The notes under the pieces are model-generated. The model did not search any database, was not told the DNA's origin, and worked only from the letters and a program-made list of their open reading frames with translations. 33,587 bases of DNA from an uncultured Jannaschia sp. (GTDB taxonomy: Bacteria > Pseudomonadota > Alphaproteobacteria > Rhodobacterales > Rhodobacteraceae): NCBI GenBank assembly GCA_947494145.1, contig CANLTZ010000026.1:1-33587 (forward strand). The letters run 5' to 3'. Both the position numbers and the translations under genes were made by a program. Positions 1,169 to 33,587 of the stretch are shown piece after piece. Each line of letters starts with the position of its first letter. Positions within the stretch are counted from its first letter, which is position 1.

Positions 1169-1174
1169 ATCGCC

Positions 1175-1450: not shown

Positions 1451-1453
1451 CCC

Positions 1454-17215: not shown

Positions 17216-17218
17216 CGA

Positions 17219-19880: not shown

Positions 19881-20812
19881 GAGCCCAACCGAAAATTAAG
19901 GTGAGTGATTTCAGCGATTTGTGATTCCCTGTGGTTGCGAAGCTACGGAGAAACACGATGCCTTGGACTGAAATCACTCGCCGCCAGCATGACAGACGTT
20001 CGCTACGCTATGCAAGTGACTGTACGAACGGAGAATGGGCTCTTGTCGCGCCTTTCATGCCCGCGCGTTCAAATGTCGGCCGCCCGCGGCGCACGCGGAT
20101 GCGTGCGGTGTGGAACGCGGTCCAGTATATCGCTGCGACGGGTTGCCAGTGGGCGCAGCTGCCAAAGGATTTTCCGCCTTTCACGACGGTTCAATATTAC
20201 TTCTACAAGCTGCGTGACAGCGGCGTTCTCGACCTGATCAACGAGGCGCTGGCTTGCGCATCCCGGTTGCTATCAGGTCGCACGCCAGAGCCCACGGCAG
20301 GCGTGATCGACAGCCAATCGGTGAAGACAACCGAGAGCGGCGGCCCGCGCGGCTTCGATGCCGGAAAGAAAGTGAAGGGCCGAAAGCGCCATATCATCAC
20401 TGATACCGAAGGCAATTTGCTGGCGGCGCGTGTGCACACAGCCGACATTCAGGACCGCGATGGGGCGGCAGGCGTGATTGGCGATGCGAAAGACAGCTTC
20501 CCGACATTGTCGCTCCTCTATGCCGATGGCGGCTATGCAGGTGATAGGCTGGAGGTGGAAATGATCGCGACAGACGGCCCGGCCATCAAGATCGTTCGCA
20601 GGCCCGGCCATGCAAAAGGCTTCGTCGTCATCGCCCGGCGCTGGGTCGTCGAGCGCACTCTCGCCTGGATCGGACGATGCCGACGTCTCGCAAAGGACTG
20701 GGAAACCAGCATCGCCTCATCCGAAGCCTGGACCCTCATCGCCTCCATCCGACGACTCTCAAGACGCGTCGCAAGGCTAGCAGAAAAGGCCCGGAAATTT
20801 TGAGTCAGACTC
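19881..20812 (+). mobile_element. Complete IS5-family insertion sequence, 932 bp
   Basis: The element is bounded by GAG at 19881 and CTC at 20812, with imperfect terminal repeats: left GAGCCCAACCGAAAATT against the reverse complement of the right end GAGTCTGACTCAAAATT, 12 of 17 matching. Both flanks carry the trinucleotide TTA (19878-19880 and 20813-20815). That fits a TNA target duplication as known for the IS1031/IS427 subgroups of IS5. It encodes one intact DDE transposase. Removing it and one TTA rejoins a short intergenic region between two divergent AraC genes. Confidence 0.88.
19958..20803 (+). CDS. IS5-family transposase
   Basis: This protein has 281 residues from the ATG at 19958 with ACGGAG eight bases upstream; a TTG/ATG a few codons earlier is possible. 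The N-terminal domain has LRYASDCTNGEWALVAPFMP, and WNAVQYIAATGCQWAQLPKD with PPFTTVQYYFYKLRDSG follow. The DDE catalytic residues are Asp118 (VIDSQSVK), Asp190 (LLYADGGYAG) and Glu232 (RRWVVERTLAWIGR), all present and uninterrupted, so the enzyme should be active. The reading frame fills the element and stops nine bases before its right end. Confidence 0.93.
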   Translation: MPWTEITRRQHDRRSLRYASDCTNGEWALVAPFMPARSNVGRPRRTRMRAVWNAVQYIAATGCQWAQLPKDFPPFTTVQYYFYKLRDSGVLDLINEALACASRLLSGRTPEPTAGVIDSQSVKTTESGGPRGFDAGKKVKGRKRHIITDTEGNLLAARVHTADIQDRDGAAGVIGDAKDSFPTLSLLYADGGYAGDRLEVEMIATDGPAIKIVRRPGHAKGFVVIARRWVVERTLAWIGRCRRLAKDWETSIASSEAWTLIASIRRLSRRVARLAEKARKF

Positions 20813-20847
20813 TTAATCTTCTCGAATCAACAGTTGAAGGGAAGATT

Positions 20848-21699
20848 TTGTCTGGCACCACAACTCCGCAATTTTCGAGCAAGCCGGAACGGATCTGGGT
20901 TTCGGAAGCGCTCGAGGTCGGCCAGATTTCCTATCTCTCGATGCCGCCGAGCCAGGAAAGTGACCGTGTGTCGAAATCCACGCCGTTCTCCATGGACTTC
21001 ACTTTCACGCAGCATGATCAAGCCGTGATTGAAAAGTCGAGCAGTGCCCTCGTCGACCGCGACCTGCCAGCGGGTACCGGCGGGATGGTAGGCGGTGAAG
21101 GATACGCTTGGATTCAGGTGCGAGAACCGTTTGAGTGCGTGGAGATAACACCGAGTTCTCCGATCCGTCGCGAAGTCGCCCACGATCTCCGGGCTGACGC
21201 GGCCTTCGACATGGCCGAAATCTGGGATCAGAACGATGCGGCCCTGTGGGCGTCGGCGACAAGGATCAGGTCGCATGCGCGCGGTGGAACGCCGCTGTCC
21301 GAATTAGAGGCAGACGAACTCATTCGCGGTCTGCTCGGTCATATGATTTGCGAGCACCTCGGCGGTCGCCCGGCTCGTACAAATAGCCGCCCAATGGATA
21401 GGAAGCGACTCAATCGCATCGGAGAATTCGTCGATGCGCACCTTATGGAACGGCTAACAGTGTCCAGGCTCGCCGATGTGGCCGCAATGAGTCCCTTCCA
21501 GTTCATCCGGACCTTCAAGACGGCCACCGGTCTGGCGCCACACGCCTTCGTAACGGCCAAGAAGATGGAAAAGGCCAGAACGCTGATGCTTACTGACGGG
21601 ACAGACCTGGCCGCAGCAGCGAAGAGAGTCGGATTTTCGAACGTGCACCATTTCAAACGCCTGTTCATCTCACACTTCGGCGCGGCGCCGCGTGGTTGA
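20848..21699 (+). CDS. AraC family transcriptional regulator beside the IS5-family element
   Basis: This is 283 aa if it starts at the TTG at 20848, which has GAAGGGAAG just upstream. Codons before it in the same frame belong to the IS, and the pre-insertion sequence offers no in-frame ATG before a stop; Met near 20941 is a shorter option. The C-terminal half has the AraC double helix-turn-helix (LTVSRLADVAAMSPFQFIRT then FKTATGLAPHAFV, and DLAAAAKRVGFSNVHHFKRL then FISHFGAAP). The N-terminal domain (VSEALEVGQISYLSMPPSQE) resembles other AraC sensors of unknown ligand. The IS lies 35 bases upstream of the proposed start, so the native promoter is probably displaced. No obvious target operon follows. 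Confidence 0.82.
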   Translation: MSGTTTPQFSSKPERIWVSEALEVGQISYLSMPPSQESDRVSKSTPFSMDFTFTQHDQAVIEKSSSALVDRDLPAGTGGMVGGEGYAWIQVREPFECVEITPSSPIRREVAHDLRADAAFDMAEIWDQNDAALWASATRIRSHARGGTPLSELEADELIRGLLGHMICEHLGGRPARTNSRPMDRKRLNRIGEFVDAHLMERLTVSRLADVAAMSPFQFIRTFKTATGLAPHAFVTAKKMEKARTLMLTDGTDLAAAAKRVGFSNVHHFKRLFISHFGAAPRG

Positions 21700-21789
21700 A
21701 TCTGGCTTTTTCGGTTCCATGGAGGAGGGAGACGTACCGTCAGCATCGTCTACCAAAGCTCCAAGCGCTACGTTCGTCTTATCGGTCTT

Positions 21790-21952
21790 GGAAAGTTGTG
21801 TAGTGCACCACCGGAGACCCCATGCCGCCCTCGACGGACAACAGCCGGACGTGGTCTACCGCACCTGCAAGACGATCACGCAACCCGACCAAGAGACCCG
21901 GAGATTAGCTTAGAAACCGCCAGATCCCGCCCAATTTCCGGGGAGCACCTCA
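21790..21952 (+). pseudogene. 3' remnant of an IS3-family insertion sequence
   Basis: The frame ending at 21913 reads VVHHRRPHAALDGQQPDVVY, the C-terminal signature (HRRPHAALDG.TP..Y) of the IS3-family OrfB integrase. Only about 40 residues of the transposase survive; the catalytic domain and left end are missing. After the stop the sequence runs to GGGGAGCACCTCA ending at 21952, which has the TCA-3' form of an IS3 right terminus and coincides with the point where the MFS gene is interrupted. Residues encoded upstream of about 21795 have no clear IS homology. Confidence 0.72.
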
Positions 21953-22350
21953 ACCGTCATCGTCACCGCAACGGCCATGCCGAGAAAAGCGCGGCTCGCA
22001 AGCAGGGCGATGAGGTCGTCGAGCCAGAGCCCCGCCGTGCCCGCCGCGCCATAGAGCATGGCAGCGGCGACCAGCATGGGTCTGCCTCCGACCCGGTCGA
22101 TCAGCAAACCGCCCAAGGGCGCCAGAAGCGCAATCGTCAGGCCGTGCGTCGTCAGGAGGACGCAGGAGAGCACCTCCGCATTGGGGACGTACGCGAAGTG
22201 CGCCTGCAGCCCGGGCAGCCCGGGCGCAATGGTGGCGCCGGCCATGACGGTCAGGGACGCCGCCGCCAGGATCGTCCAGTTGCGCAATGCGTCCGGTCCC
22301 GTAAGTAGCTGGCGCGTTCCCTTTGCCGATCTTTGGACTTCGATTGTCAT
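21953..22350 (-). pseudogene. MFS transporter, truncated by the IS3-family remnant
   Basis: From the ATG at 22350 (GAGGTT just upstream) the frame gives about 133 residues of a major facilitator N-terminal half. It shows NWTILAAASLTVMAGATIAP, then GLPGLQAHFA, and the A-motif region GLTIALLAPLGGLLIDRVGG then RPMLVAA. RAFLGMAVAVTMT begins the fourth membrane helix. At 21953 homology stops and the frame continues into IS sequence until 21910. A full MFS protein has about 400 residues and twelve helices, so this gene is non-functional. The N-terminal pattern resembles CynX/NimT or Bcr-like exporters, but the substrate cannot be assigned. Confidence 0.82.
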
Positions 22351-22445: not shown

Positions 22446-22730
22446 CTACTGGTTTGCGACGGCCTCGATCCGCCCTCGCTTCTCGCTCTCGGAGTCCTCG
22501 CTGGCGAGGATGTGCTCTATGGCCGCGAGTTGACCAAGCGTCAGACTCTGTGGGTCGACCTCTAAGTCGTAGAGACGGAAGGCGCTTTGGGCGTGGACCT
22601 CGAGCTGAGAAAGATGCTCGCCGACCCGTTCGGCATGCGCCGTATCGCCCAGGACGGGTGACGCGGCGAGGCCAAGCATGGCCATCGCGAGACCAAAACC
22701 CAACTTTGCTCTTGGTTTACCGATCATCAT
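22446..22730 (-). CDS. Small secreted protein of unknown function
   Basis: This 94-aa protein begins at the ATG at 22730 (an adjacent ATG at 22733 is not in use or equally possible), with GGAGAGGAG upstream. A signal peptide (RAKLGFGLAMAMLGLAASPV then LGDTAHA) precedes a short mature region (LSQLEVHAQSAFRLYDLEVD then PQSLTLGQLAAIEHILASED), mostly helical and acidic. I recognise no family. An operator-like repeat at 22831-22863, shared with the neighbouring dehydrogenase operon and the Dps/isochorismatase units, lies 101 bases upstream in the same orientation. It is therefore probably co-regulated with them. Confidence 0.65.
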   Translation of the reverse strand: MMIGKPRAKLGFGLAMAMLGLAASPVLGDTAHAERVGEHLSQLEVHAQSAFRLYDLEVDPQSLTLGQLAAIEHILASEDSESEKRGRIEAVANQ

Positions 22731-22830: not shown

Positions 22831-22863
22831 TATTCTGGACCCAAGGATGGGATTCCGTATTTC
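22831..22863 (-). promoter_or_regulatory. Operator-like repeat, copy A
   Basis: On the - strand (sense for the gene at 22730) it reads GAAATACGGAATC, 11 bases, TCCAGAATA. It contains two direct half-sites (TACGGAATC and TCCAGAATA) with a 20-bp period, as AraC-type proteins often bind. Identical spacing is seen in copies B and E. It ends about 100 bases before the ATG of the secreted-protein gene. Confidence 0.62.
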
Positions 22864-23127
22864 TCAGTGTGTTTGACCGCGCGCAGACGATATTTCATGT
22901 CGACTGGCGCGCCCAAACTGCGCGGACTTTCATTTGAAGCTTCAATGGGTAGGCCGACAGACCACGCGTTAGATTACGGCGCGGTCCCAAGACCGGAGAA
23001 GTCGCGTCAGGCAAATAGCGACGCTGAAACGGCATCGGGCTATGGAACTCAGCCAGGTCTTTTCGCGCGGACAGTTTCAGCCGGATGGCGGCCCCATCTG
23101 GCGCCGCAGGGCGTCTTTTGGCGTGAC

Positions 23128-23152
23128 CGGCCCTCCCCGAAGGTGAGGGCCG
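23128..23152 (-). terminator. Hairpin after the quinone-oxidoreductase-like gene
   Basis: CGGCCCTC and GAGGGCCG form an 8-bp stem around a short inner CC/GG pairing with GAA at the tip, 28 bases after the stop of the - strand gene at 23180. There is no T-run on either side, so an intrinsic terminator is likely only in the broad sense; it could also stabilise the 3' end of the mRNA. Confidence 0.4.
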
Positions 23153-23179
23153 AGTGGACAGCAGATACTCTTCGAGAGG

Positions 23180-24097
23180 TCAGGTCATGAGAACGAGCTT
23201 CGCGTTTGCGCCTGCCTCTCCGGCAGCGTGGGCCTGGGCAGCTGCCGCCAGCGGAAATGTGTCGACGAGCGGGCGCGGAAGATCGCCAGAAGCAATCCCC
23301 GCCTCAAGGCGCTCGAGAGCAGATCTGTCGGGCTGGACCTGCAGCATCGAGACGGTCACGTCCCGACCCGCAGGATCTGGCGGCTGCGCGCTAGAGACGA
23401 GACGTGCCCCAGGCGACACAGCGGCCAGCGCAGCTGCCTGCAAGGGGCCACCGACGAGGTCGATGACCAGATCGGCTTCGGCGATCGATGCCGTCCAATC
23501 GCCGTCGTCGCTCGCGATCTTTCGGGTTTGTTCGGAGAACCCTGCAGTTTCGAGTTCGGCGCGCCGGCCGATCGCCATGACCTCCACACCGTCGATCTGA
23601 CCTGCAAGTGCGATACTGAGGCGCCCGACCTGACCGGCCGCGCCGATCACGGCCACCCGCTCACCCGGCGCAAGCGCGCCGACCTCATGGATGAGTTGCC
23701 AGGCCGCAAGACCGACGACGGGAATGGCCGCCAGAACTTCTGCCGGCAGATCGGTCTGGGCCTTTGCCATGGCGTTTGCGGGCGCCGTCGCATAGTCCGC
23801 ATAGGCGCCGGGCGCTCCGATGGGGATCATGCCGAAGACTTTGTCGCCCATTTCTAAATCGCTGACATCCGAACCCGTGGCGAGGACCGTTCCCGCCACA
23901 TCCCATCCGAGCGTGAACGGCAGCGGAAGGGGCATCATCCGCGCAAGGGTGCCGGACCGAATCTTCCAGTCCAGCGGATTGATCCCGGCCGCATGCACGT
24001 CGAGCAGCACCTCATCTGGGCCGGGGCTTGGGTCCGGCACGTCCTCAAACTGTAGGACACTCGGATCGCCATAGGCATGGAAACGAACGGCTTTCAT
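23180..24097 (-). CDS. Zinc-free MDR-family NADPH:quinone/alkenal oxidoreductase-like protein
   Basis: This is 305 aa from the ATG at 24097 (GGGAGG upstream; ATGA overlap with the preceding gene). It is a medium-chain dehydrogenase/reductase with MKAVRFHAYGDPSVLQFEDV then PDPSPGPDEVLLDVHAAGIN, and PFTLGWDVAGTVLATGSDV. The Rossmann fold is AVIGAAGQVGRLSIALAGQ. No catalytic zinc-binding set (the GHE motif and the structural Cys cluster) is present, so it belongs with quinone reductases and alkenal reductases rather than alcohol dehydrogenases. Such enzymes reduce quinones or unsaturated carbonyls with NADPH. It is the last gene of the ALDH-ADH-OYE operon, consistent with electrophile removal. 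Confidence 0.87.
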   Translation of the reverse strand: MKAVRFHAYGDPSVLQFEDVPDPSPGPDEVLLDVHAAGINPLDWKIRSGTLARMMPLPLPFTLGWDVAGTVLATGSDVSDLEMGDKVFGMIPIGAPGAYADYATAPANAMAKAQTDLPAEVLAAIPVVGLAAWQLIHEVGALAPGERVAVIGAAGQVGRLSIALAGQIDGVEVMAIGRRAELETAGFSEQTRKIASDDGDWTASIAEADLVIDLVGGPLQAAALAAVSPGARLVSSAQPPDPAGRDVTVSMLQVQPDRSALERLEAGIASGDLPRPLVDTFPLAAAAQAHAAGEAGANAKLVLMT

Positions 24098-25194
24098 TGC
24101 GCCGCCTCCCGGGTAGGCGCCTCTCCATAGGTTGGGAAATCCGTGTAGCCGCCTGGGCCTTCGCCATACCACTGATCGTGGTGCGCCTCGGCGAGCGGCC
24201 AACCATGCGCAAGACGCGAGACGAGGTCGGGGTTGGCGATGTAGGGCACGCCGAAAGAGACGAGATCAGCCACGCCATCGTCCAGAAGCGCCTTGGCCGC
24301 GTCCAGATCGAGGCCACCGTTCGCGATGAGGCGGGTGCCGACAAACGGACGTAGGCTCCGGGCGACGTCGCGCATGGGCGCATCCGCTTCTGACCCCTTG
24401 GGCGGCTCCATCAGATGGATGTAGGCGATCCCGAGATCGCTGAGGCGCTCGCAGGCATAGGAGAAGACCGCTTCAGGGTCGCTGTCACCCATGCCGTAGA
24501 ACGTGTTGGCGGGCGACAGTTTCACGCCGACGCGCTCCGGCGCCCAGGCCCCGATCGCGGCCTGCACGGCCTCCAGAAGAAAACGGCAGCGCTTCGAGAT
24601 CGCGCCACCGAAGGCGTCGTCGCGATGGTTGCTCACGTCCTGCAAGAACTGGTCGATCAGATAGCCGAAAGCCCCGTGCAGTTCGACGCCGTCAAAGCCC
24701 GCTTCGCGCGCCCGGCGCGTCGCATGGCCGAACTCGGCTGCGATCGGGAGGATTTCCGAAGTTTCCAGCGCTCGCGGCGTCTCGAAGCCGACATAGCCCT
24801 CTGGCGTATAGATTTGCCCTGCCGCGGGAAGCGCAGAGGGCGCGACTGGGCGCGCACCATCGCGGAACGAGGCATGCGCCACGCGCCCGCAATGCCAGAT
24901 CTGCAAGAAGATCTTACCACCAGCGCGGTGCACGGCGTCGGTGACCTTGCGCCATCCCGCCACATGCGCCGCATTGGCGATCCCCGGTGAACGGATGATG
25001 CCGCGGCCCTGATCGCTGATCCATGTGCAATCGGTGAGGATCAGGCCCGCCGAGGCGCGTTGCGCGAAATAGTCGGCCATCAGAGCGGTCGGAACACCGT
25101 CCTCCTCGGCCCGGGTGCGCGTCATCGGCGCCATGACGATGCGGTTGGCGAGGCCGAGGTCTCCCAAATGATGAGGTGCGAAAATGTCCGTCAT
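24094..25194 (-). CDS. Old Yellow Enzyme family alkene reductase (NemA-like)
   Basis: This is 366 aa from the ATG at 25194, overlapping the ADH stop as ATGA. It is an FMN-dependent TIM barrel that reduces activated C=C bonds (enones, maleimides, nitroesters). Landmarks are NRIVMAPMTRTRA (17-29), FLQIWHCGRVAHASF (96-110), GVELHGAFGYLIDQFLQ (169-185) and SNHRDDAFGG. FMN phosphate contacts lie in LIANGGLDLDAAKALLDDG, and ADLVSFGVPYIANPDLVSRL is near the end. The substrate-activating pair of this family is normally His plus His/Asn (H-x-A-N/H); here His173 is kept but residue 176 is Phe. Tyr178 is kept. It is probably co-transcribed with the dehydrogenases around it. Confidence 0.93.
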   Translation of the reverse strand: MTDIFAPHHLGDLGLANRIVMAPMTRTRAEEDGVPTALMADYFAQRASAGLILTDCTWISDQGRGIIRSPGIANAAHVAGWRKVTDAVHRAGGKIFLQIWHCGRVAHASFRDGARPVAPSALPAAGQIYTPEGYVGFETPRALETSEILPIAAEFGHATRRAREAGFDGVELHGAFGYLIDQFLQDVSNHRDDAFGGAISKRCRFLLEAVQAAIGAWAPERVGVKLSPANTFYGMGDSDPEAVFSYACERLSDLGIAYIHLMEPPKGSEADAPMRDVARSLRPFVGTRLIANGGLDLDAAKALLDDGVADLVSFGVPYIANPDLVSRLAHGWPLAEAHHDQWYGEGPGGYTDFPTYGEAPTREAAQ

Positions 25195-26381
25195 GCCGCC
25201 GCACTCTGTCCGGCGATGCCATTCCCGGTGAGCGCACGCCGAAAGAGCGCCTGCATTTCGTCCACCGTCGCGGGCCTTGGATTGGTCGCGGCACAAGGAT
25301 CGGCGAGCGCGTAATCGGCCAGATGCGGCACGTCTTCGTCCTTGACCCCCATCTCCGCCAGATTGGCTGGAATGCCGAGCGCGTCGTTGTAGGTCAGGAT
25401 CTTCGCGATCAGCCCGGCGACGATATCGTCCGTAGAGCGTCCCGCCGTCTCCACGCCGAAATGCGCCGCGATCTCGGCATAGCGTTCGCCTGCGACCTCT
25501 GCATTCCAGGTGATCACATGCGGCATCAGCACCGAGTTGATCACCCCATGGGCGAGAGTGTGATACATGCCGCCGACTTGATGCGACATGGCGTGGACAA
25601 AGCCGAGGCTCGCATTGTTGAAAGCCATCCCCGCCAGAAACTCCGCATAGGTCATATCGGAGCGCGCGCTTCGATCATGGCCGTCCTCGAACGCGCCGAT
25701 CAGCGCCTTGTCGATCAACTCGACGGCTCGCAGCGCGCCAGGATCGGTCAGATGGCTGGCTGCCGTCGACACATAGGCTTCGAGCGCGTGGCTGAGGGCA
25801 TCCATCCCCGTCGCGGCGGTGAGACCCTTCGGCATGCCTTCCATCAGTTTCGGATCATCGACGGAAACGCTCGGCGTGCAGCGCCAGTCCACGACCGGGA
25901 ACTTGGACTTGTTCTCCTCGTCGGTGATGATGGCGAAGCGGGTGATCTCGCTCGCCGTGCCCGAGGTCGTGTTGACGGCGAACATCGGCGCCATCTTCTC
26001 CCGCATCTGATCGACTCCGGCATAGTCGCGGATCGACCCACCATTGGTGGCGACGATGCCGATGCCCTTGCAGCAATCATGGGGCGATCCGCCGCCGAAG
26101 GAGATGAGGAAGTCGCAGGCCTCGCGGGCATAGACCGCCGCGCCCTCGTCGCACTCCGCGACTGTGGGGTTGGGCGTCACTTTGTCATAGACGACGTAGT
26201 CGATCCCCTTGGCTTCTAGGCGGTCGATCAGGGGTTTGGTCGCGTGGACCTGTTTGTGCAGCGCCTCATCGGTGACGATCAGCGCCTTGGTAAGGCCTTG
26301 GGAGGCCATCTGATCGACGGCGGCATCGAGCGCGCCATCACCGGCGATGTTCATCGGGGGGAGAAAGAAGAAGTCGGGCAT
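25191..26381 (-). CDS. Iron-containing alcohol dehydrogenase (YiaY/FucO-like)
   Basis: This is 396 aa from the ATG at 26381 (AGGAGC upstream; an in-frame ATG at 26399 is less well placed). It is a group III metal-dependent dehydrogenase that interconverts alcohols and aldehydes with NAD(P)H. Visible are the cofactor motif FGGGSPHDCCKGIG (about 95-108), NTTSGTASEITRFAIITD (137-154) and the metal ligands Asp194 and His198 (TGMDALSHALEAY). A His-rich segment HAMSHQVGGMYHTLAHG supplies His263 and His278. The segment has one residue more than the usual FucO spacing. It lies between aldehyde dehydrogenase and Old Yellow Enzyme genes in one operon. Confidence 0.92.
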   Translation of the reverse strand: MPDFFFLPPMNIAGDGALDAAVDQMASQGLTKALIVTDEALHKQVHATKPLIDRLEAKGIDYVVYDKVTPNPTVAECDEGAAVYAREACDFLISFGGGSPHDCCKGIGIVATNGGSIRDYAGVDQMREKMAPMFAVNTTSGTASEITRFAIITDEENKSKFPVVDWRCTPSVSVDDPKLMEGMPKGLTAATGMDALSHALEAYVSTAASHLTDPGALRAVELIDKALIGAFEDGHDRSARSDMTYAEFLAGMAFNNASLGFVHAMSHQVGGMYHTLAHGVINSVLMPHVITWNAEVAGERYAEIAAHFGVETAGRSTDDIVAGLIAKILTYNDALGIPANLAEMGVKDEDVPHLADYALADPCAATNPRPATVDEMQALFRRALTGNGIAGQSAAA

Positions 26382-26425
26382 GGGAGCGCTCCTGTGCATC
26401 GGGTTGAAATCGATCCGAAAAAGGC

Positions 26426-26522
26426 GAGGCCGGGCGGACCGAGCCAGGGCCGGCCGGTCGCGGGTGGCTTGAACGGGGGCGCCATCCCGCCGGATAGGGA
26501 CAGAGAAGGTGCGCCCGGCCTC
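26426..26522 (-). repeat. Long-range inverted repeat in the ALDH-ADH intergenic region
   Basis: GAGGCCGGGCG (26426-26436) is the exact reverse complement of CGCCCGGCCTC (26512-26522). An 11-bp G/C-rich stem would close a loop that contains further G/C dyads. It occupies the 157-bp gap between the aldehyde dehydrogenase stop and the alcohol dehydrogenase start, the only sizeable gap in this operon. It may stabilise or attenuate the downstream mRNA. Confidence 0.5.
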
Positions 26523-26538
26523 AGTCGGGGAGGATCGA

Positions 26539-28053
26539 TCAGTTCAGCTTGACGTAGACGGCCTTGGTCTCGGTGAAGGCCTCGAAGGCCTGGCGTCCGC
26601 GGTTGCGACCCCAGCCGGACTGCTTGTAGCCCCCAAACGGCATCGCCGCGTCGAAGACGTTGTAGCAGTTGACGAAGACCGTTCCGGCGCGGATCGACCT
26701 GGCGACCTGATGGGTCTTGCGCACATCCGTCGTCCAGATGCCGGCGCCAAGGCCGTATTCCGTGTCGTTTGCGCGCCGCACGACGTCGTCGATGTTCGAA
26801 AACCGCTCGACCGTCGCGACGGGTCCGAAGATTTCCTCACGGACGATCGTCATGTCCGGGTCGACATCGGTGAAGAGCGTCGGCTGGACGAAGAAGCCCT
26901 TATCGCCCGCGCGCGCGCCACCGACGGCGACGGTCGCGCCGGCAGATTTGCCCGCGTCCACGTAGCCCATCACCGTGTCGAATTGGTTCTGGGACACGAG
27001 CGGTCCCATGTCGGTCTTATCGTCCTGCCCCGATCCGAGCCGGATCTTCTCCGCCTCCGCCACCATGCCGGCGACGACCTGGTCGTAGACCTTGTCCTCG
27101 ACATAGATCCGTGTGCCCGCGCAGCAGCATTCGCCCTGGTTGAAGAACACGCCCATCGCGACCCCGGCAATGGCCGCGTCGAGATCGGCATCGGCGAAGA
27201 TGATGTCCGGCGACTTGCCGCCAAGCTCCAGCGTGACCTTCTTGAGGTTGGAGTCGGCCACCGACTTCAGGAGGCCACGCCCCGTGCGGGTCGAGCCCGT
27301 AAACCCGATCTTGTCGACCAGCGGATGCTCGACCAGACGCGCGCCCGCACCCGCGCCGAAACCCTGGACGATGTTGATCACGCCCGGTGGCACACCGGCC
27401 TCCAGTGCAAGCTCGCCGAACCGGATGATCGACAGCGGCGTCACCTCGGAAGGCTTCAGCACGATCGTGTTGCCAGCCGCGAGCGCGCCCGCCATCTGCC
27501 AACCCGCCGCGATCAGGAGCGGATAGTTCCACGGTGTGATCAGGCCCACCACGCCCACAGGCTCTTCGACCGTATAGGCGTGGAAATCGGCGCCCGGGAT
27601 CGCGAAGTCCGAGGTTGGCACCACATGGCCCTCGCGGGTCCGCGCATGGGCGGCCATGTAGTGGAAGAGATCGGCCGTCAGCGGAACGTCGGCGACCTTG
27701 GCGACCGAGACCGGCTTGCCGTTGTCGAGGCTCTCGATCCAGGCGAGTTCTTCGCCATTCGCCTCGATCAGATCACCGAGCTTCTGGAGGATGCGCTGGC
27801 GCTCAGCGGGCAGCATGCGCGGCCACGGACCTTCGTCGAAGGCCTTGCGCGCAGCGGCGACTGCGGCGTCGATATCAGCCGCATCGCCGAGGGCGACAGA
27901 AGTCAAGACCTCTTCGGTCGCCGGGTTGAGCGTGTCGAAGGTCTTGCCGGATTTCGCATCGACCCAATCGCCATCGATCAGCAGGCGATGCGGTTGCTTG
28001 AGGAACCCTTCGGCCGGGCCGAACGAGGCTTTGATCGGGGTCAGAATGTTCAC
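26539..28053 (-). CDS. NAD(P)-dependent aldehyde dehydrogenase (phenylacetaldehyde dehydrogenase-like)
   Basis: This is 504 aa from the GTG at 28053 with AGGAGAC upstream. It is an ALDH-superfamily enzyme that oxidises aldehydes to acids. Motifs are PWNYP with Asn176, Lys200 in IVLKPSEVTP, the coenzyme loop GFTGSTRTGR (250-259), general base Glu276 in VTLELGGKSPD, nucleophile Cys310 in FFNQGECCCAG, and EEIFGPVATV. The usual GQxCxA is GECCCA here, so three consecutive Cys surround the active site. The C-terminal PFGGYKQSGWGRNRGRQAFE is typical of the phenylacetaldehyde/ALDH2 group. It is the first gene of the - strand operon; operator copy B lies 98 bases before the start. Confidence 0.94.
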   Translation of the reverse strand: MNILTPIKASFGPAEGFLKQPHRLLIDGDWVDAKSGKTFDTLNPATEEVLTSVALGDAADIDAAVAAARKAFDEGPWPRMLPAERQRILQKLGDLIEANGEELAWIESLDNGKPVSVAKVADVPLTADLFHYMAAHARTREGHVVPTSDFAIPGADFHAYTVEEPVGVVGLITPWNYPLLIAAGWQMAGALAAGNTIVLKPSEVTPLSIIRFGELALEAGVPPGVINIVQGFGAGAGARLVEHPLVDKIGFTGSTRTGRGLLKSVADSNLKKVTLELGGKSPDIIFADADLDAAIAGVAMGVFFNQGECCCAGTRIYVEDKVYDQVVAGMVAEAEKIRLGSGQDDKTDMGPLVSQNQFDTVMGYVDAGKSAGATVAVGGARAGDKGFFVQPTLFTDVDPDMTIVREEIFGPVATVERFSNIDDVVRRANDTEYGLGAGIWTTDVRKTHQVARSIRAGTVFVNCYNVFDAAMPFGGYKQSGWGRNRGRQAFEAFTETKAVYVKLN

Positions 28054-28150
28054 GGGGACGTCTCCTTTCGAAAAAGCGGGGCTGCAGAGGTCCGGCACCG
28101 GCTTCGGTGCGCGAGACTTGTTCGAAAGGTAAACAACGGTTTTGGTCGCG

Positions 28151-28183
28151 TATTCTGGACCGCAAATAGGGATTCAGGATTTC
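28151..28183 (-). promoter_or_regulatory. Operator-like repeat, copy B (aldehyde dehydrogenase operon)
   Basis: On the - strand it reads GAAATCCTGAATC, 11 bases, TCCAGAATA. It matches copy A at 20 of the 22 conserved positions and has the same 20-bp half-site period. It lies 98 bases before the GTG of the aldehyde dehydrogenase gene, in the sense orientation for it. Confidence 0.65.
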
Positions 28184-28230
28184 ATTTGACGTCTCGAAAT
28201 CGAGGCCTTTCTTGGTGAAGGCACCGAAGA

Positions 28231-28261
28231 GAAATCCGGAATCGATGGCAAATCCAGAAGA
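28231..28261 (+). promoter_or_regulatory. Operator-like repeat, copy C (Dps-like gene)
   Basis: On the + strand it reads GAAATCCGGAATC, 9 bases, TCCAGAAGA. It lies 61 bases before the ATG at 28322, back to back with copy B. The spacer is two bases shorter than in A, B and E. Confidence 0.6.
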
Positions 28262-28321
28262 CACCCATATCCTCTTTGCCGTCTCTCTGTGACGTTAGTC
28301 TCAAGACAAAAAAGGAACGGC

Positions 28322-28792
28322 ATGGCCCCGACAGTCGAAGAGATCACGTCCGGCGGATTGCTCCGCCTTCTCGCCGACAACTTCGTCCTTCTTTACAAGG
28401 CGCGGCATCTCTCGTGGCGCGTGAACGGCGATGTTGGAACCGGATTGCGGGCGATCATTCGGCAGGACCACCGTGATCTCGATGACGCCGCCGATGACCT
28501 CGCGCTCCGCATCATCTCCCTCGGCCGAGACCTCCCGCCAAGCTATCCGGACCTCGTGGGCAGTTCATCGATCAAGCAGGAGCTGGCCCAGCGAAAGGCG
28601 GCGGACATGATCGGTCAACTCATCGATGACCACGACCAGATCCTGCGGGATATCGACACGCTCGAAGTCACGATGCCGATTGGAGATGATGAAAAAACGA
28701 TCGGGCTTCTGGAGCAGCTCAAGCACTGCCACGACCGGTGCCGGGTGAGCCTACAGGGTCTCATTCGGCCGAAAGGCAGCGGCCTACAATAG
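28322..28792 (+). CDS. Dps-fold (ferritin-like) protein with degenerate metal site
   Basis: This is 156 aa from the ATG at 28322 (AAAGGAACGG upstream). It aligns without gaps with the canonical Dps encoded at 32203 across the ferroxidase region (SWRVNGDVGTGLRAIIRQDH then RDLDDAADDLALRIISLG). LIDDHDQILRDIDTLE follows, the usual fourth-helix region. Of the five ferroxidase ligands found in E. coli Dps (H51, H63, D67, D78, E82), the aligned residues here are Ser31, Arg43, Arg47, Asp58 and Leu62, so four are lost. It could be a DNA-binding or structural Dps relative without iron oxidation. Operator copy C precedes it. Confidence 0.82.
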   Translation: MAPTVEEITSGGLLRLLADNFVLLYKARHLSWRVNGDVGTGLRAIIRQDHRDLDDAADDLALRIISLGRDLPPSYPDLVGSSSIKQELAQRKAADMIGQLIDDHDQILRDIDTLEVTMPIGDDEKTIGLLEQLKHCHDRCRVSLQGLIRPKGSGLQ

Positions 28793-28803
28793 GGCGCGTC
28801 ACC

Positions 28804-29691
28804 TTAACTCCGCACTTCTTTCCGGTACCGCCCCGGCGTCACACCCAGCTTCTCGCGGAAGACGTCCGTCATGTGGCTCTGCGAGGCGAAGCCGCAGGTA
28901 TAGGCGATTTCGGCCAGCGGCATCTCGCCCGCGGCCAACAGCTCCTGCGCCCGCGCGATGCGGCGGGAGAGGACGTATTGGTGGGGGGTCTGGCCGGTCG
29001 CTGTCTTGAAGGCAGCGGCCAGGTGGACCTGCGCGCAACCTATTGCATTGCTGAGATCATGTAACCGTAGCGGTGTCTCCAAGCGGTCTTCGATGAAGTC
29101 GTAGCACTTATTCAATTCAGCAGAGGAGAGCGGAACGACGTCGTCACCCGAGCGGGAACCGCCAATGGCTCTGTCCAATAGCGCGCAGACGAGCGTAACG
29201 AGACCATGATCGACTGCAAGGGACGCGAATGCACCTTCCCGTTCAGCGCTCAGCCACAACCGCTTCGTCCAGTCGGCGAGCAGCGGATCCACCACGAGGC
29301 GGTCGTGCAAAGGCCGAGTAGCTTGGGTAAGCGCTTCCTTGGTGACGGCGAGGCTGTTCGCCAAAGACGCCAAATCGGCGCTGACAATAAGAAGCTCGGC
29401 AGATTGGGTCTGGCGAAACCAGTAGTCGCCGCCGATCGGATTGACATAGAAGCCACCCTTTTGATTGAGGTGCTTCTTGCCCTCGCCGAAATCGACAACC
29501 GTCTCCCCCTTCGCGTCCCAAGCCAGGACGACGGCAATATCTCCCCGCTCTTCGAAACTTGCCTCGATCTCCGGCTGATGCATTCGGATGAACTCGACAG
29601 GAAGCTCGCCGTCGGTCTTGTAGTGCCGTTCTATGCTTTCGTAGGCGACGTTTTGATCGTAAGCCTGCAGCAAATGTTGCGTCTCGCTCAC
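28804..29691 (-). CDS. AraC family regulator, second of a tandem pair
   Basis: This 295-aa protein has an N-terminal cupin-like sensor region (AVVLAWDAKGETVVDFGEGK, GGFYVNPIGGDYWFRQTQSA) and a C-terminal double helix-turn-helix. HTH1 is LRLHDLSNAIGCAQVHLAAA then FKTATGQTPHQY; HTH2 is MPLAEIAYTCGFASQSHMTD then VFREKLGVTPGRYRKE. Its start overlaps the stop of the upstream AraC gene (ATGA, 29688-29691), so the two are co-translated. The last 61 residues match the partner at 58 positions, while the N-terminal halves differ. It converges on the Dps-like gene with 11 bases between the stops. Confidence 0.9.
   Translation of the reverse strand: MSETQHLLQAYDQNVAYESIERHYKTDGELPVEFIRMHQPEIEASFEERGDIAVVLAWDAKGETVVDFGEGKKHLNQKGGFYVNPIGGDYWFRQTQSAELLIVSADLASLANSLAVTKEALTQATRPLHDRLVVDPLLADWTKRLWLSAEREGAFASLAVDHGLVTLVCALLDRAIGGSRSGDDVVPLSSAELNKCYDFIEDRLETPLRLHDLSNAIGCAQVHLAAAFKTATGQTPHQYVLSRRIARAQELLAAGEMPLAEIAYTCGFASQSHMTDVFREKLGVTPGRYRKEVRS
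28810..29000 (-). repeat. Duplicated C-terminal helix-turn-helix segment, copy 1
   Basis: This aligns without gaps (offset 884 bases) with 29694-29884 in the neighbouring AraC gene. A 45-bp stretch (28942-28986 and 29826-29870) is identical at the DNA level, including third codon positions. Similarity falls sharply upstream of about 29000, inside the genes. Confidence 0.8.
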
Positions 29692-30578
29692 CCCCGCACC
29701 TCCTTTCGATACCGCCCGGGCGTCACGCCGAGTTTCTCGCGGAAGACGTCGGTCATATGGCTCTGCGAGGCGAAGCCGCAGGCATAGGCGATCTCGGCCA
29801 GCGGCATCGCACCCGCCGCCAGCAACTCCTGCGCCCGCGCGATGCGGCGGGAGAGGACGTATTGGTGGGGCGTCAGGCCCGCCGTTCTCCGGATGCTGAC
29901 CGAGAGGTGAGCCGGCTGCATTTGCAGGGCTTGAGCGAGATCATTTGTGTTGATGGGATCGTGCAGACGTTCCGTGAGGAATGCTTCGAGCTGTTCGATC
30001 TGCTTCGGTGTAAGGGATTGCCCCTGCACATCTACCTCGACCGACGCGCGCGATAGGAACCGCGCAACGATCACTTGCCATAGACCGTCGATCATCATCG
30101 CCGACGCATCGCCGTTGCGTTCGGATTGCCGCCACATGGTCAGGATAGCCGACGAGACATCGCCGTCGTGAACGACAGTCTGGCTGTGAAGAGGTGCCAA
30201 GACCTCCAAAGTATGCTGGCCATATTCGTCAAGCAAACCCTCAAGCTTGCGTCGCGGGCAAGCCACCAAGAGAACGTCATGATCACCGCCGCAGTCGTAC
30301 TCGATGCTCGTCGCGACGGGGCAGACATTCATGCTTCCCGTCGCAAACCGATGCTCGTCGGACCAGCCATCGCCGATTTGCCATCGGAATGGCATGTTGG
30401 ACCGAAGCGACAGCGTAACAACAAGCTCATCGACTTCGGGGTCCGTAAAATCGTGGGCCGTCTGCTTCGAACGGATGAAGGTCAAGCCATAACCGCCGCC
30501 ACCGCGATGCTCCTGTTCGAAGCGGGAATAGCCGGGATGGCGTCGATAATGGTCGGCTACTGTAAGAGTTTCGCTCAT
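29688..30578 (-). CDS. AraC family regulator, first of a tandem pair
   Basis: This is 296 aa from the ATG at 30578 with GAGGTG eight bases upstream. The N-terminal sensor domain (about 1-185) includes LVVTLSLRSNMPFRWQIGDG and YDCGGDHDVLLVACPRRKLE, and it is unlike the sensor of the partner gene. The C-terminus has HTH1 (INTNDLAQALQMQPAHLSVS) and HTH2 (MPLAEIAYACGFASQSHMTD). It is divergent from the isochorismatase-GST-Dps-LtrA operon. Operator copy D lies 180 bases upstream of its start and copy E just beyond, so it may control itself and the divergent operon. The inducer is unknown. Confidence 0.9.
   Translation of the reverse strand: MSETLTVADHYRRHPGYSRFEQEHRGGGGYGLTFIRSKQTAHDFTDPEVDELVVTLSLRSNMPFRWQIGDGWSDEHRFATGSMNVCPVATSIEYDCGGDHDVLLVACPRRKLEGLLDEYGQHTLEVLAPLHSQTVVHDGDVSSAILTMWRQSERNGDASAMMIDGLWQVIVARFLSRASVEVDVQGQSLTPKQIEQLEAFLTERLHDPINTNDLAQALQMQPAHLSVSIRRTAGLTPHQYVLSRRIARAQELLAAGAMPLAEIAYACGFASQSHMTDVFREKLGVTPGRYRKEVRG
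29694..29884 (-). repeat. Duplicated C-terminal helix-turn-helix segment, copy 2
   Basis: This is the partner of the repeat at 28810-29000. It encodes the same HTH2 and C-terminal tail; of 61 aligned residues only three differ (Glu/Ala, Thr/Ala, Ser/Gly). DNA identity across silent positions points to recent duplication or gene conversion rather than protein-level constraint alone. Confidence 0.8.
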
Positions 30579-30757
30579 CCTCGCACCTCTTGCGGGAGGT
30601 CCGCATACCCCGACCTTCGATAGAAGTCGGTCAGATTTGTCGCTCCTGCGCCCAACGTCATGTCTCCGTCATCTCTCGCTCGGATCGGGTTGTCCGAACG
30701 CGCTCAATGCATCCCCTCTAAATGATCACTATCTTCTAACATCCGTTCTGAGCCCGC

Positions 30758-30789
30758 TCTTCTGGAAGAATTTCCGGATTCCGAATTCC
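30758..30789 (-). promoter_or_regulatory. Operator-like repeat, copy D (upstream of the AraC pair)
   Basis: On the - strand it reads GGAATTCGGAATC, 10 bases, TCCAGAAGA. It is 180 bases before the ATG of the AraC gene at 30578, sense for it, and 11 bases from copy E. The first half-site is less conserved than in B and C. Confidence 0.52.
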
Positions 30790-30800
30790 TATGCAAATAA

Positions 30801-30833
30801 GAAATTCAGAATCCGACCGGCAGTCATAGAAAA
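30801..30833 (+). promoter_or_regulatory. Operator-like repeat, copy E (isochorismatase operon)
   Basis: On the + strand it reads GAAATTCAGAATC, 11 bases, CATAGAAAA. The first half matches well and the second is the weakest of the set, but the 20-bp period is kept. It ends 69 bases before the ATG at 30902. Confidence 0.5.
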
Positions 30834-30901
30834 CAGCGTCCGTCGGGTCGACTATAGTCGAAAATCAGTTGGATTTCATCTTTGAAATGGGGATCGCCGC
30901 C

Positions 30902-31534
30902 ATGTCCGAACCGTTCACGCCCGAAAACAGCGCCTTGCTGCTCATCGACCATCAGGTGGGCACCATGCAACTCATCAAGAACATCCCCATGGCGGACGCC
31001 AGGCGCAACGCCATCGCGCTGGCGAAGATGGCCGGGATTTTCGACATGCCCGTGGTGATGACCTCCAGCCAGGAGGACCATGTGCAGGGACCGTTGATCC
31101 GGGAGCTGGAAGAGCTGCACCCGGCAGCCTTCGCGGGCCGCATCAAGCGGCCGGGTGTCGTCAATGCATGGGCTTATGATCCCTTCAGGCAGGCCGTCGA
31201 GGCGACAGGCCGGACAAACCTGATCATGGCGGGCGTGACGACCGATGTGTGCCTCGTCTTCCCGGCCATAGACGCTGTGAAAGCCGGTTACGGCGTGCAG
31301 GCGGTCATGGACGCCTCCGGCTCGCCCTTCGATCTGTCCGAGGACATGTCGCGCCGCCGGATGGAGGATGCGGGCGTGGTGCTCACCGCCACCAATACGC
31401 TGATCGCTGAACTGGCGCAGGACTGGTCAACCGAGGAGGGACAGCAACTGATCCAGCTTCTGTTCACCGACGTGATCCCGCCGATTTCACAGGCTCAGGA
31501 CGCCAGCGGAGGTGATCAGCGTGCCGCCGGATAA
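30902..31534 (+). CDS. Isochorismatase-family hydrolase (YcaC-like)
   Basis: This is 210 aa from the ATG at 30902. It has the cysteine-hydrolase fold with the catalytic triad Asp16 (ALLLIDHQVG), Lys82 (GRIKRPGVVNAW) and Cys117 (AGVTTDVCLVFPAIDA). The sequence around NAWAYDPFRQAVEATGRTNL then IMAGVTTDVC closely resembles the E. coli YcaC group, whose natural substrate is unknown. It leads a + strand operon and overlaps the GST gene by 14 bases. Operator copy E precedes it. Hydrolysis of an amide or other adduct is a family-based expectation only. Confidence 0.88.
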   Translation: MSEPFTPENSALLLIDHQVGTMQLIKNIPMADARRNAIALAKMAGIFDMPVVMTSSQEDHVQGPLIRELEELHPAAFAGRIKRPGVVNAWAYDPFRQAVEATGRTNLIMAGVTTDVCLVFPAIDAVKAGYGVQAVMDASGSPFDLSEDMSRRRMEDAGVVLTATNTLIAELAQDWSTEEGQQLIQLLFTDVIPPISQAQDASGGDQRAAG

Positions 31535-32186
31535 CGATTCAGAGCCGCTCACGACCCTCCATTACATGCCGGGCACATGCGCGCTCGGCGTCCACATCGC
31601 GCTCGAATGGGCGGGTGCGCCCTATGAGGCGCGTCGCCTGTCGCAAGAGGATCTGCACAGCCCGGACTATCTGGCCCTTAACCCTGCCGGCGTCGTGCCG
31701 ACCCTGATCCAGGACGGCGCCGTCATGACCGAGGCGTCGGCCATTCTGCTCGCGCTGGCGCGGCAGGTGCCAGGGCTTGGTCCCGGTCCAGATGCGGGCG
31801 AGCACGACCGCTTCCGGTTCGAACGGTTGATCATCTATCTCGGCGGCACACTGCACCCGCATTTCTGGCCGTGGTTCGTGCCGCAGCGCTATGGCGCGGC
31901 ACATGAGCCTGATCAGGCGAACGTCAAGCAGGCGGCAGAAGCCCTGATCGGGAGGGCGCTCACCTGGCTCGATGGCGAGCTTGGCGACGGGCCGTTCTTC
32001 CTCGGCGCGCGCCCGAGCGCCGTCGATGCCTATTTCTTCCCCATGGGGCGGTGGGGATATGGGCTGAAAACCCCGACATCCGAATATCCGAACCTTCACG
32101 GCCTGATGCAGCGGCTGGCGCAAGATCCGGGCGTCGCCGCGGCCATGACCGCCCAAGGCCTGCCGCCCCTCAGCGCCGACACCTGA
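31521..32186 (+). CDS. Glutathione S-transferase (beta-class-like)
   Basis: This is 221 aa from the GTG at 31521, chosen because GGAGGTGAT sits about eight bases upstream; a GTG at 31512 is in frame but has no such site. The N-terminal thioredoxin-fold domain has LHYMPGTCALGVHIALEWAG, where the Cys (about residue 20) sits as in beta-class GSTs. The glutathione-binding strand/turn NPAGVVPTLIQDGAVMTEAS follows. The all-helical C-terminal domain has WLDGELGDGPFFLGARPSAV then DAYFF. GSTs conjugate electrophiles to glutathione, consistent with the neighbouring oxidoreductases. It overlaps the isochorismatase stop and is followed by dps. Confidence 0.9.
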   Translation: MPPDNDSEPLTTLHYMPGTCALGVHIALEWAGAPYEARRLSQEDLHSPDYLALNPAGVVPTLIQDGAVMTEASAILLALARQVPGLGPGPDAGEHDRFRFERLIIYLGGTLHPHFWPWFVPQRYGAAHEPDQANVKQAAEALIGRALTWLDGELGDGPFFLGARPSAVDAYFFPMGRWGYGLKTPTSEYPNLHGLMQRLAQDPGVAAAMTAQGLPPLSADT

Positions 32187-32202: not shown

Positions 32203-32682
32203 ATGACCCTTCATACCACCAAGAATACGCTGCCCTCGAACAGCCGGCAGGCCGCCATCGACCTTCTGCAGGCGCGCCTGGCCACTGCGATCGACCTCAA
32301 GCAGAGCGTCAAGCAGGCCCATTGGACCGTCAAAGGCGCCAATTTCATCGCGCTGCACGAGCTCTTCGACCGCGTGCATACCGATATGGACGGCCATGTG
32401 GACGACATCGCCGAGCGTCTGGTCGCGCTGGGCGGGCAGGCGCGAGGAACCGTACAAACGGCCGCCCAGGCCTCGACACTGCCGCCTTATCCTGAGGACA
32501 TCTCAGACGCGCAGGATCATGTCGGCACGCTGTCCTCCGCGCTCGCAACCTTCGGCGAGGAGGTCCGGAGCGCCATCGGATCGGCAAGCGAGATCGGCGA
32601 TGAGGGGACCGCCGATCTGTTCACCGGCATGTCGCGGGACCTCGACAAAGTGCTATGGATGGTCGAGGCCCATAGGACCTGA
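32203..32682 (+). CDS. dps: Dps family DNA-protecting ferritin, canonical
   Basis: This 159-aa protein has AAAGGACG before the ATG. All five ferroxidase ligands are present: His40 (KQAHWTVKG), His52 and Asp56 (IALHELFD), and Asp67 and Glu71 (VDDIAERLVALGG). Dps dodecamers oxidise and store iron using peroxide and coat DNA in stress. Position in the operon with GST and the isochorismatase-like hydrolase supports an oxidative-stress role. The contrast with the degenerate Dps-like protein at 28322 in the same regulon is notable. The LtrA gene follows within seven bases in the same frame. Confidence 0.95.
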   Translation: MTLHTTKNTLPSNSRQAAIDLLQARLATAIDLKQSVKQAHWTVKGANFIALHELFDRVHTDMDGHVDDIAERLVALGGQARGTVQTAAQASTLPPYPEDISDAQDHVGTLSSALATFGEEVRSAIGSASEIGDEGTADLFTGMSRDLDKVLWMVEAHRT

Positions 32683-32688
32683 CTGTAT

Positions 32689-33587
32689 GTGACTGTTCGG
32701 CCTGACACTCAATCTGACACGGGAAGCGAGCCGCGCAAGGCGACCTGGTTCGAGCTCTACTTCGATCTCGCCTTCGTCCTCGCGGTCGCCGCGCTCACCC
32801 ACCGCCACGTTTCGGACTACACGATCTCAGGTGCTGCGGCTTTCGCTCTCCAGTTTCTCGTCATCTGGAGCCTCTGGGTGGGCCATACCTTCTGGGCCAG
32901 TCGCTACGATGAGGATAGGCCGGACCAGCACATCTTCGGCTTTGCAAAGATCCTCGCCATCATTGCGATCGCCTATGGCTCCACGGGCGCCGAATACGGC
33001 GATCTGTGGTTTGCCTGCGGCGTCGGCGCCTTCAAGTTGCTTTTGGCAGCCGCCTATCTGCGCTATGCTTTCCATCAACGACAGCTGCGGGGCGCGCGCC
33101 TCCCTGCACTCGTCTTCTGCCTCCAAGGGATGGCGTGGATCGCGACGGCCTTCCTCCCAGACACGCTTCGCGCAACAGCATGGGTCGTCTTGCTTTTGGC
33201 AGAACTCCTAAGCCCGCTTCTGCTGACCCGCGCAGGCGACGACACTCTTCCCCATCCGGAGCACATGCCGGAGCGGTTCGGCCTCTTCACCATCATCCTT
33301 CTCGGCGAGGCCGTCGCCTCAGCATTGCATGGCCTGTCTCACGACGAAGCCATCACCCGCGAGGCGCTGATCGTCTCGCTCAACGGCGCAGCGCTCAGCT
33401 TCCTGTTTTGGGTTGGGTATTTTCACCGTGCGCGTAGCGCGGCCGCACGACGCGCCGAACAGGTCTGGACGATGCAATCCGTCCGAAGATGGGTCTACGC
33501 GCATATGCCCCTCTATCTGGGCATCGCCGGCTTCAGTGCGGGCACAGTCGCGCTCGCTGGCCATGGTCATCTTGGCCTTGAGATCGC
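32689..33587 (+). CDS. Low temperature requirement protein A (LtrA) family membrane protein, partial
   Basis: The frame opens right after the Dps stop; the first likely start is the GTG at 32689. It runs off the window, so 299 codons are visible and the 3' end is missing. The beginning RKATWFELYFDLAFVLAVAA is the LtrA hallmark. Repeated membrane helices follow (ISGAAAFALQFLVIWSLWVG, ILAIIAIAYGSTG, RFGLFTIILLGEAVASALHG, GAALSFLFWVGYFH). The GERFGLF/LLGEAV-type region is typical of the family, whose molecular activity is not known. It is the last visible gene of the isochorismatase-GST-dps unit. Confidence 0.88.
   Translation, partial: MTVRPDTQSDTGSEPRKATWFELYFDLAFVLAVAALTHRHVSDYTISGAAAFALQFLVIWSLWVGHTFWASRYDEDRPDQHIFGFAKILAIIAIAYGSTGAEYGDLWFACGVGAFKLLLAAAYLRYAFHQRQLRGARLPALVFCLQGMAWIATAFLPDTLRATAWVVLLLAELLSPLLLTRAGDDTLPHPEHMPERFGLFTIILLGEAVASALHGLSHDEAITREALIVSLNGAALSFLFWVGYFHRARSAAARRAEQVWTMQSVRRWVYAHMPLYLGIAGFSAGTVALAGHGHLGLEI

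Follow-up and report, generated by a model that had tools for sequence, protein, structure and literature searches.

The 33,587-nt stretch analysed here (contig CANLTZ010000026.1, hereafter the window) carries five copies of a two-box motif that probably act as operators of AraC-family regulators encoded beside them, driving a local regulon for detoxification of electrophiles and oxidants; judging from sequence, we put the probability of this reading at about 0.73. Each site would be a direct repeat of a TCCnGAA-like box with a period of 18-20 bp, to which two regulator subunits would bind upstream of the promoter, each placing its conserved second helix-turn-helix (HTH) in one box, and the bound regulators would activate the unit toward which the site points. 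The genes under such control would comprise an aldehyde/alcohol/enone/quinone oxidoreductase operon, a small and possibly exported protein, two ferritin/Dps-type proteins, a glutathione S-transferase (GST), a YcaC-like hydrolase, an LtrA-family protein and the AraC genes themselves. Since this gene set points to turnover of aldehydes, enones and quinones, to glutathione conjugation and to iron and oxidant protection, reactive electrophiles or oxidants are the likely signals, and since neighbouring AraC proteins combine different sensors with the same second HTH, several signals could feed the same operators. From the family and the genes we infer activation rather than repression as well as the nature of the signal, and likewise the role of the second HTH as the part that reads the boxes. 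That all AraC proteins of the island read the same boxes through it is the simplest reading by analogy with MarA, SoxS and Rob; a single box occurring twice alongside a single conserved HTH, with first HTH and spacers both divergent, agrees with it short of proof.

Operator-like sites and their frequency

Five sites had originally been predicted, each upstream of a transcription unit and oriented toward it, and all five were recovered at the coordinates then given. They are listed below with their counterparts in two related islands of the same genome, a close copy on contig C24 (stretch L007) and a diverged one on contig C3 (stretch L116).

22831..22863, minus strand: putative operator site A (GAAATACGGAATC-N11-TCCAGAATA); C24 counterpart L007:12614-12645, with a spacer one base shorter
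28151..28183, minus strand: putative operator site B, toward the aldehyde dehydrogenase (ALDH) operon; identical in C24, L007:7293-7325
28231..28261, plus strand: putative operator site C, toward the ferritin-like gene; counterpart L007:7215-7245, and diverged sites at the equivalent promoter, L116:3284(-)/3292(+)
30758..30789, minus strand: putative operator site D, toward the AraC pair (possible autoregulation); counterpart L007 from 2925, and a diverged site, L116:8852(-), upstream of the C3 AraC gene
30801..30833, plus strand: putative operator site E, toward isochorismatase-GST-Dps-LtrA, second half weak; counterpart L007:2881-2913 with a better second half

The distances to the chosen start codons, about 60 to about 180 bp, agree with those predicted (A, 100 bp from a small open reading frame (ORF); B, ~95 from ALDH; C, ~60 from the ferritin-like gene; D, ~180 from the AraC pair; E, ~70 from isochorismatase), and E is indeed the weakest copy. 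The predicted 20-bp period of the half-sites holds in A, B and E but not in D (19 bp) or C (18 bp), and it is 19 bp in the C24 counterpart of A; the gap between the boxes is 9-11 bases. Alignment of 13 sites (five from the window, five from C24 and three from C3) yields the consensus GAAATCCnGAATCC, about 10 bases, TCCAGAAnAC, with ten invariant columns, and in the best copies both boxes read TCCnGAA, that is, they repeat each other. AraC/XylS regulators bind direct-repeat operators adjoining the -35 region, and the direct-repeat boxes seen here upstream of genes are predicted operators of that type.

A pattern requiring both halves, TTCTN{10,15}GATTCNGDATT, matched ten times in the 4.91-Mb genome (five times in the window and five in C24) and its reversed control not at all, so that the motif is not at background frequency. 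A strict pattern gave six matches (three in the window, three in C24; control 0); the only one of 60 relatives to match it was the source genome itself, and among 394 genomes of the family there were two, the source genome and G414, the latter with one single match. A scoring matrix trained on the five window sites alone gave them 32.0-37.5 bits, values that are not independent because the matrix was built from them; the next place in the window reached just 20.0 bits (19472, minus strand, inside an AraC reading frame), and the top score in 300 shuffles of the window was 26.0. The original statement that no other copy is present thus stands for the window, but the motif is also found in C24 (all five copies) and, in diverged form, in C3. 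Targets scattered genome-wide, a trait of mar/sox/rob, were not observed: all ten strong matches fall in the two close islands, and weaker ones, from a matrix run on about 130 kb of the source genome besides the window, in C3. The first half alone (GAAATNCNGAATC, up to two mismatches) is not special in the window, with 15 matches vs 10.2 expected and 9 of 100 shuffles reaching 15.

As proposed, the sites mark the units that had been listed, and Pfam and NCBIfam place most genes downstream in families linked to detoxification or stress. The predicted regulon is nevertheless local to three related islands, and its more unusual feature, an array of AraC genes, had gone undescribed.

An array of AraC genes with unlike sensors and a shared tail

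29688..30578, minus strand: AraC-family regulator wA, 296 aa, sensor half without Pfam match; counterpart c2, L007:4014-4904
28804..29691, minus strand: AraC-family regulator wB, 295 aa, overlapping the end of wA by 4 bases; counterpart c4, L007:5785-6672
29691..29873, minus strand: wA tail (second HTH, 61 aa)
28807..28989, minus strand: wB tail (second HTH, 61 aa), 95% identical to the wA tail; sensor halves 22% and first HTH 26% identical

Both proteins contain the AraC/XylS C-terminal domain of about 100 residues with two HTHs (PF12833 at 3e-23 and 8e-23; PF00165 at 4e-15 and 1e-15), and a profile of their relatives matches the solved DNA-binding domains of MarA, SoxS, Rob and AraC; a Pfam scan of the N-terminal halves of wA and wB, in this family the variable part for sensing or dimerisation, gave no match. 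Two overlapping AraC genes are present in the window and four in C24 (c1-c4), where wA corresponds to c2 and wB to c4. The last 61 residues, comprising the second HTH, are 92-98% identical in 15 of 15 pairs of these six proteins. In 12 of the pairs the sensor halves are 20-24% identical and the first HTH 18-32% on recounting (14-24% among neighbouring genes in one alignment), the remaining three being the two counterpart pairs (sensor 95-96%) and c1-c3 (sensor 58%, first HTH 49%). All six island tails read DVFREKLG, as do none of the 19 other proteins compared.

Further tandem AraC genes were seen in the source genome, G475 and G016 (L007:16914-18895, L114:14833-16592, L119, L122 and L123); their most alike neighbours are 90-98% identical in the first HTH and 43-68% in the sensor halves, the sensor values being rough, as some frames start too early.

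Three related islands

The C24 island, which is paralogous to that in the window, contains the same genes in the same order plus two extra AraC genes, with DNA identity of 93% over 7.9 kb and 88% over 3.0 kb, and carries all five site copies at the same positions. Identity between the two inside the sites (32/33, 62/64 and 57/65) and outside them (210/228, 195/201 and 230/258) makes for an uninformative comparison. An AraC tail piece lies beside a piece matching the ferritin-like gene, with stops inside, in a remnant at L007:15325-15609. At 19931-22350 the window has an IS4/5-type transposase near a short reading frame of the major facilitator superfamily (MFS; 146 aa, 416 aa in the C24 copy), and since similarity to C24 starts at 21953, one edge of the island is near this insertion sequence.

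The diverged C3 island, on a 16-kb stretch, consists of an MFS reading frame, HbpS-like, ferritin-like, isochorismatase, GST, LtrA and MFS genes, and one AraC gene. Its proteins are 50-51% (ferritin-like), 85% (isochorismatase), 68% (GST) and 73% (LtrA) identical to those of the window, and the ALDH, alcohol dehydrogenase, old yellow enzyme and quinone-reductase genes have no match within this stretch. An HbpS-like gene of a haem-degrading family (L116:2337-3182) replaces the ALDH operon opposite the ferritin-like gene. The window-only matrix, run on a part of the source genome amounting to about 130 kb besides the window, found places of 24.3 and 20.7 bits, lying back to back, in the promoter region from which the ferritin-like and HbpS-like genes of C3 diverge, and a place of 22.4 bits about 170 bp upstream of the first possible AraC start. 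The 24.3- and 22.4-bit sites outscore all else scanned outside the islands; 300 shuffles of L116 gave on average 0.02 places of at least 19 bits, shuffles of the two C3 intergenic stretches reached the observed maximum in 0 of 2000 and 1 of 2000 cases, and six other stretches of the source genome (94 kb) held no place of at least 17 bits. The tail of the C3 AraC protein is the next most similar in the source genome (78% over 58 residues). Site and tail therefore co-occur in three islands of three, and a site precedes the AraC genes in each.

Probable gene conversion of the tail

Fourfold sites were counted where the first two codon bases match. In seven within-array pairs they agree at 58 of 163 positions in the sensor and at 171 of 244 in the tail, and this higher agreement indicates a tail that is not only constrained but also younger or converted. 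The counterparts wA and c2 agree at 97/115 fourfold sites outside the tail and 22/36 inside it (Fisher p 0.005), and the tails of wA and c1 match at 31/36, the wA sensor being of c2 type; the difference between wB and c4 is not significant (p 0.18), and both counterpart pairs pooled give p 0.002. In c1, c2, c3 and wA the 3′ end is AAGGAGGTGCGG, followed by TGA or ATGA and abutting the start codon of the next gene; the last genes, c4 and wB, have AAAGAAGTGCGG. As AAGGAGGTGCGG looks Shine-Dalgarno-like by eye and the last genes have AAAGAAGTGCGG in its place, the following gene appears to draw its ribosome-binding site from the tail.

The tail and the ferritin-like gene in other genomes

Searches were done with wB and P0052, keeping the best 120 of 308 and the best 120 of 287 AraC relatives. 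Among the matches listed are AraC proteins with this tail and about five kinds of sensor half (by eye and from a tree). Unlike kinds share one contig of 5,391,870 bases (four proteins), 99,286 (three), 27,005 (three), 820,481 (two) and 8,365 (two, in a Methyloceanibacter metagenome-assembled genome), where a common contig was deduced from identical size in bases and adjacency was not seen. On these five foreign contigs the tails are 77-97% identical and the sensors 9-17%. For a comparison of tail identity 25 proteins were chosen by contig, with C3 labelled apart from the window and C24; three contigs with two AraC proteins each (26,446, 80,523 and 16,904 bases; tails 72, 72 and 89%, sensors 33, 39 and 84%) and three proteins sharing a 334,433-base contig were excluded. 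Tail identity was 90.5% where unlike sensors occurred together on one foreign contig or in the set of window plus C24 (23 pairs), 85.9% for 62 pairs with like sensors from different sources, and 83.7% on average for 207 pairs with unlike sensors from different sources. With the 25 proteins, none of 5000 shuffles of the source labels reached 90.5%; when the window and C24 proteins were removed, 274 of 5000 shuffles reached the observed 85.5%, a weak signal outside the source genome. Gene conversion of the tail, as read from these patterns, is supported in the source genome and only suggested elsewhere.

An exact-pattern search of genome contigs for the motif returned 45 stretches, mostly from distant bacteria (Clostridia, Acinetobacter, Cyanobacteria), which were treated as chance. 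Searched by tblastn together with the G414 match (L008-L053), they contained no close AraC tail (39% identity at best, in Kiloniella, L043) nor, at E 1e-8, any relative of nine island proteins; two better tail matches (L084, L129) stem from the protein searches, outside those stretches.

Among 5.8 billion proteins, a search requiring shared five-residue words found 12 relatives of the ferritin-like protein at E<=1e-3, one of them the source genome's own. Contigs above 3 kb hold five of the 11 foreign proteins, and all five contig sizes (5,391,870; 99,286; 57,041; 8,365; 13,446) recur among the AraC relatives; three of the five foreign multi-AraC contigs also have this rare gene. A further co-location, at 1,137 bases, was rejected because both proteins cannot fit on one such contig. 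Seven of 60 relatives have some ferritin-like match at E 1e-10, with copies of at least 50% identity in the source genome only, one per island (100, 97 and 51%). The gene was not found at E 1e-5 in the genomes behind L008, L043 and L046 or in G014, G006 and G016, and G475 has a 31% match with an internal stop. With up to 16 candidates scored per genome, the regulator tail was found at E <= 1e-22 in the source genome only among 394 family genomes, and at E 1e-20 in two others of 385 class genomes, with tails of 65-67%.

Since the tail and the ferritin-like gene are so restricted, the islands may have been acquired, and the window also has genes for conjugative transfer (TrbL, CagX-type and TrbI, 389-5671), so that the contig probably belongs to a plasmid or integrative element. 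Searches of plasmids revealed no close relative of the island, and a search of viral contigs no relative. Distant AraC genes lie near VOC or ring-cleaving-dioxygenase, alpha/beta-hydrolase, hydrolase and dps genes on a Roseobacter denitrificans plasmid (L135), and near VOC or ring-cleaving-dioxygenase and alpha/beta-hydrolase genes and an efflux system on a Sulfitobacter plasmid (L136), surroundings with a similar detoxification theme.

Alternative explanations

Several observations weigh against operators read by the island's own regulators. A 2-bp variation in spacing is unusual for a rigid dimer site. The ten sites of the window and C24 are not ten independent observations, because the islands are 88-93% identical, with flanks conserved to roughly the same degree as the sites. 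The weakest C3 site (20.7 bits) is near background, since chance-like places reach 20.0 bits (window 19472) and 19.3 bits (L007:17187), both in AraC reading frames, and 19.7 bits in the Roseobacter plasmid stretch (L135:16460). Finally, a promoter scan of 28000-31000 gave nothing beyond chance (one found vs 1.2 expected).

This lack of an outstanding ordinary promoter in the stretch holding sites B-E, and a box gap that varies over 9-11 bases as promoter spacers do, would suit boxes that are themselves promoter elements, read by an alternative sigma factor, or by some other regulator, encoded elsewhere. We regard this as quite unlikely: the boxes are nearer each other than a -35/-10 pair is usually said to be, they are mutual repeats in the best copies, the loose pattern is absent from the rest of the genome, which would be odd for a sigma factor, and, among annotated genes from a scan of some of the ORFs, the regulators that all three islands have in common are AraC genes. 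The close similarity of two islands, flanks included, would also be expected if the motif were an inherited repeat, spread by island duplication and devoid of a regulatory role. Yet self-comparison of the window found the two AraC tails as its sole repeats, the five sites lying outside longer repeats while sharing both boxes and pointing at gene starts, and the diverged C3 island retains recognisable sites at corresponding places, making this explanation very improbable.

The near-identical tail may, on the other hand, have nothing to do with shared operators and may instead mark a tract of conversion or a hot spot of recombination, maintained because the ribosome-binding site for the following gene lies in the same bases. 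The Shine-Dalgarno-like 3′ end of all but the last array genes, the conversion-like similarity across the whole DNA-binding domain in other tandem AraC genes, and the combination in wA of a c2 sensor with a tail closest to c1 are in line with it; conservation of the tail at the protein level between genomes (83.7% over the 207 unlike-sensor pairs), which conversion within one genome cannot explain, speaks against it, and we consider it unlikely, if deserving of some weight. Operators bound by the island's own AraC proteins remain the preferred reading. A possible, if somewhat doubtful, extension is an expandable sensor array. Conversion would keep uniform a fixed 3′ cassette, made up of the second HTH and the ribosome-binding site for the following gene, and the sensor half with the first HTH would be replaceable; sensors would be gained and lost (four in C24, two in the window), all reporting to the same operators, and the choice of sites would not need the first HTH.

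Comparison with known systems

An AraC regulator is usually seen as coupling a single sensor to a single set of sites. A limited literature search found no account of AraC arrays with shared tails, which is no proof that none exists. If true, the arrangement of different sensors on one DNA-reading tail would be a natural case of many inputs with one output, brought about by modular evolution of proteins. Two questions become open to test with it, namely whether a single HTH of the two in AraC proteins suffices to choose sites, and whether the regulators of one family stay matched to their operators through gene conversion, and it gives a defined predicted operator and regulator set for an uncharacterised detoxification island.

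Several enteric members of the AraC family (MarA, SoxS, Rob and RamA) recognise overlapping stress promoters by binding motifs that can hardly be told apart, and MarA and SoxS are described as having no sensing domain and depending on MarR and SoxR (PMC10268841). In the islands, several paralogous regulators with a second HTH shared at 92-98% accompany one motif, of which they would make common use as MarA, SoxS and Rob do. Unlike MarA and SoxS as so described, each island AraC protein has an N-terminal half of its own, the genes form an overlapping array with nothing but the second HTH in common, and the regulon is predicted to be local. As in the other tandem AraC genes (L007:16914/17912, L114:14833/15711, L119:7660/8556, L122:4400/5284 and L123), the DNA-binding domains are more alike than the sensors; in those, however, the first HTH is itself 90-98% identical, whereas in the islands the second HTH alone is alike, the first being at 18-32% in 12 of 15 pairs. 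The AraC-family pair RhaR/RhaS is reportedly likewise encoded by neighbouring, co-oriented genes of one operon, and the two are said to use distinct sites in sequential roles, whereas the putative DNA-reading tail of the islands is almost the same in all members. In the NemR/NemA electrophile response, too, a regulator reportedly adjoins an N-ethylmaleimide-reductase-type enzyme, but E. coli NemR is said to be a TetR-family repressor, unlike the AraC-family regulators of the islands.

Other genes of the window

22446..22730, minus strand: small ORF, 94 aa, signal-peptide-like start (by eye), no Pfam family; C24 copy 98% identical
23180..24097, minus strand: quinone-reductase-like oxidoreductase (PF08240/PF13602; NCBIfam quinone_pig3 below cut-off)
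24094..25194, minus strand: old yellow enzyme family, N-ethylmaleimide-reductase-like (PF00724; NCBIfam PRK10605 below cut-off)
25191..26381, minus strand: iron-containing alcohol dehydrogenase (PF00465)
26539..28056, minus strand: aldehyde dehydrogenase (PF00171)
28322..28792, plus strand: ferritin-like (Dps-like) protein of a rare subfamily, with a ferritin-like domain (PF00210 at 1e-5, 25.9 bits vs cut-off 24.5)
30902..31534, plus strand: isochorismatase-type (YcaC-like) hydrolase (PF00857; NCBIfam YcaC below cut-off)
31512..32186, plus strand: glutathione S-transferase (GST_N/GST_C families, scanned from 31518)
32203..32682, plus strand: Dps (PF00210; NCBIfam PRK09448 above cut-off)
32689..33587, plus strand: LtrA-family membrane protein (PF06772), running off the contig end; 73% identical to the C3 copy

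The window also contains three molybdenum-hydroxylase-type genes at 13920-17818, coding for subunits that bind molybdenum cofactor (MoCo), FAD and a 2Fe-2S cluster.

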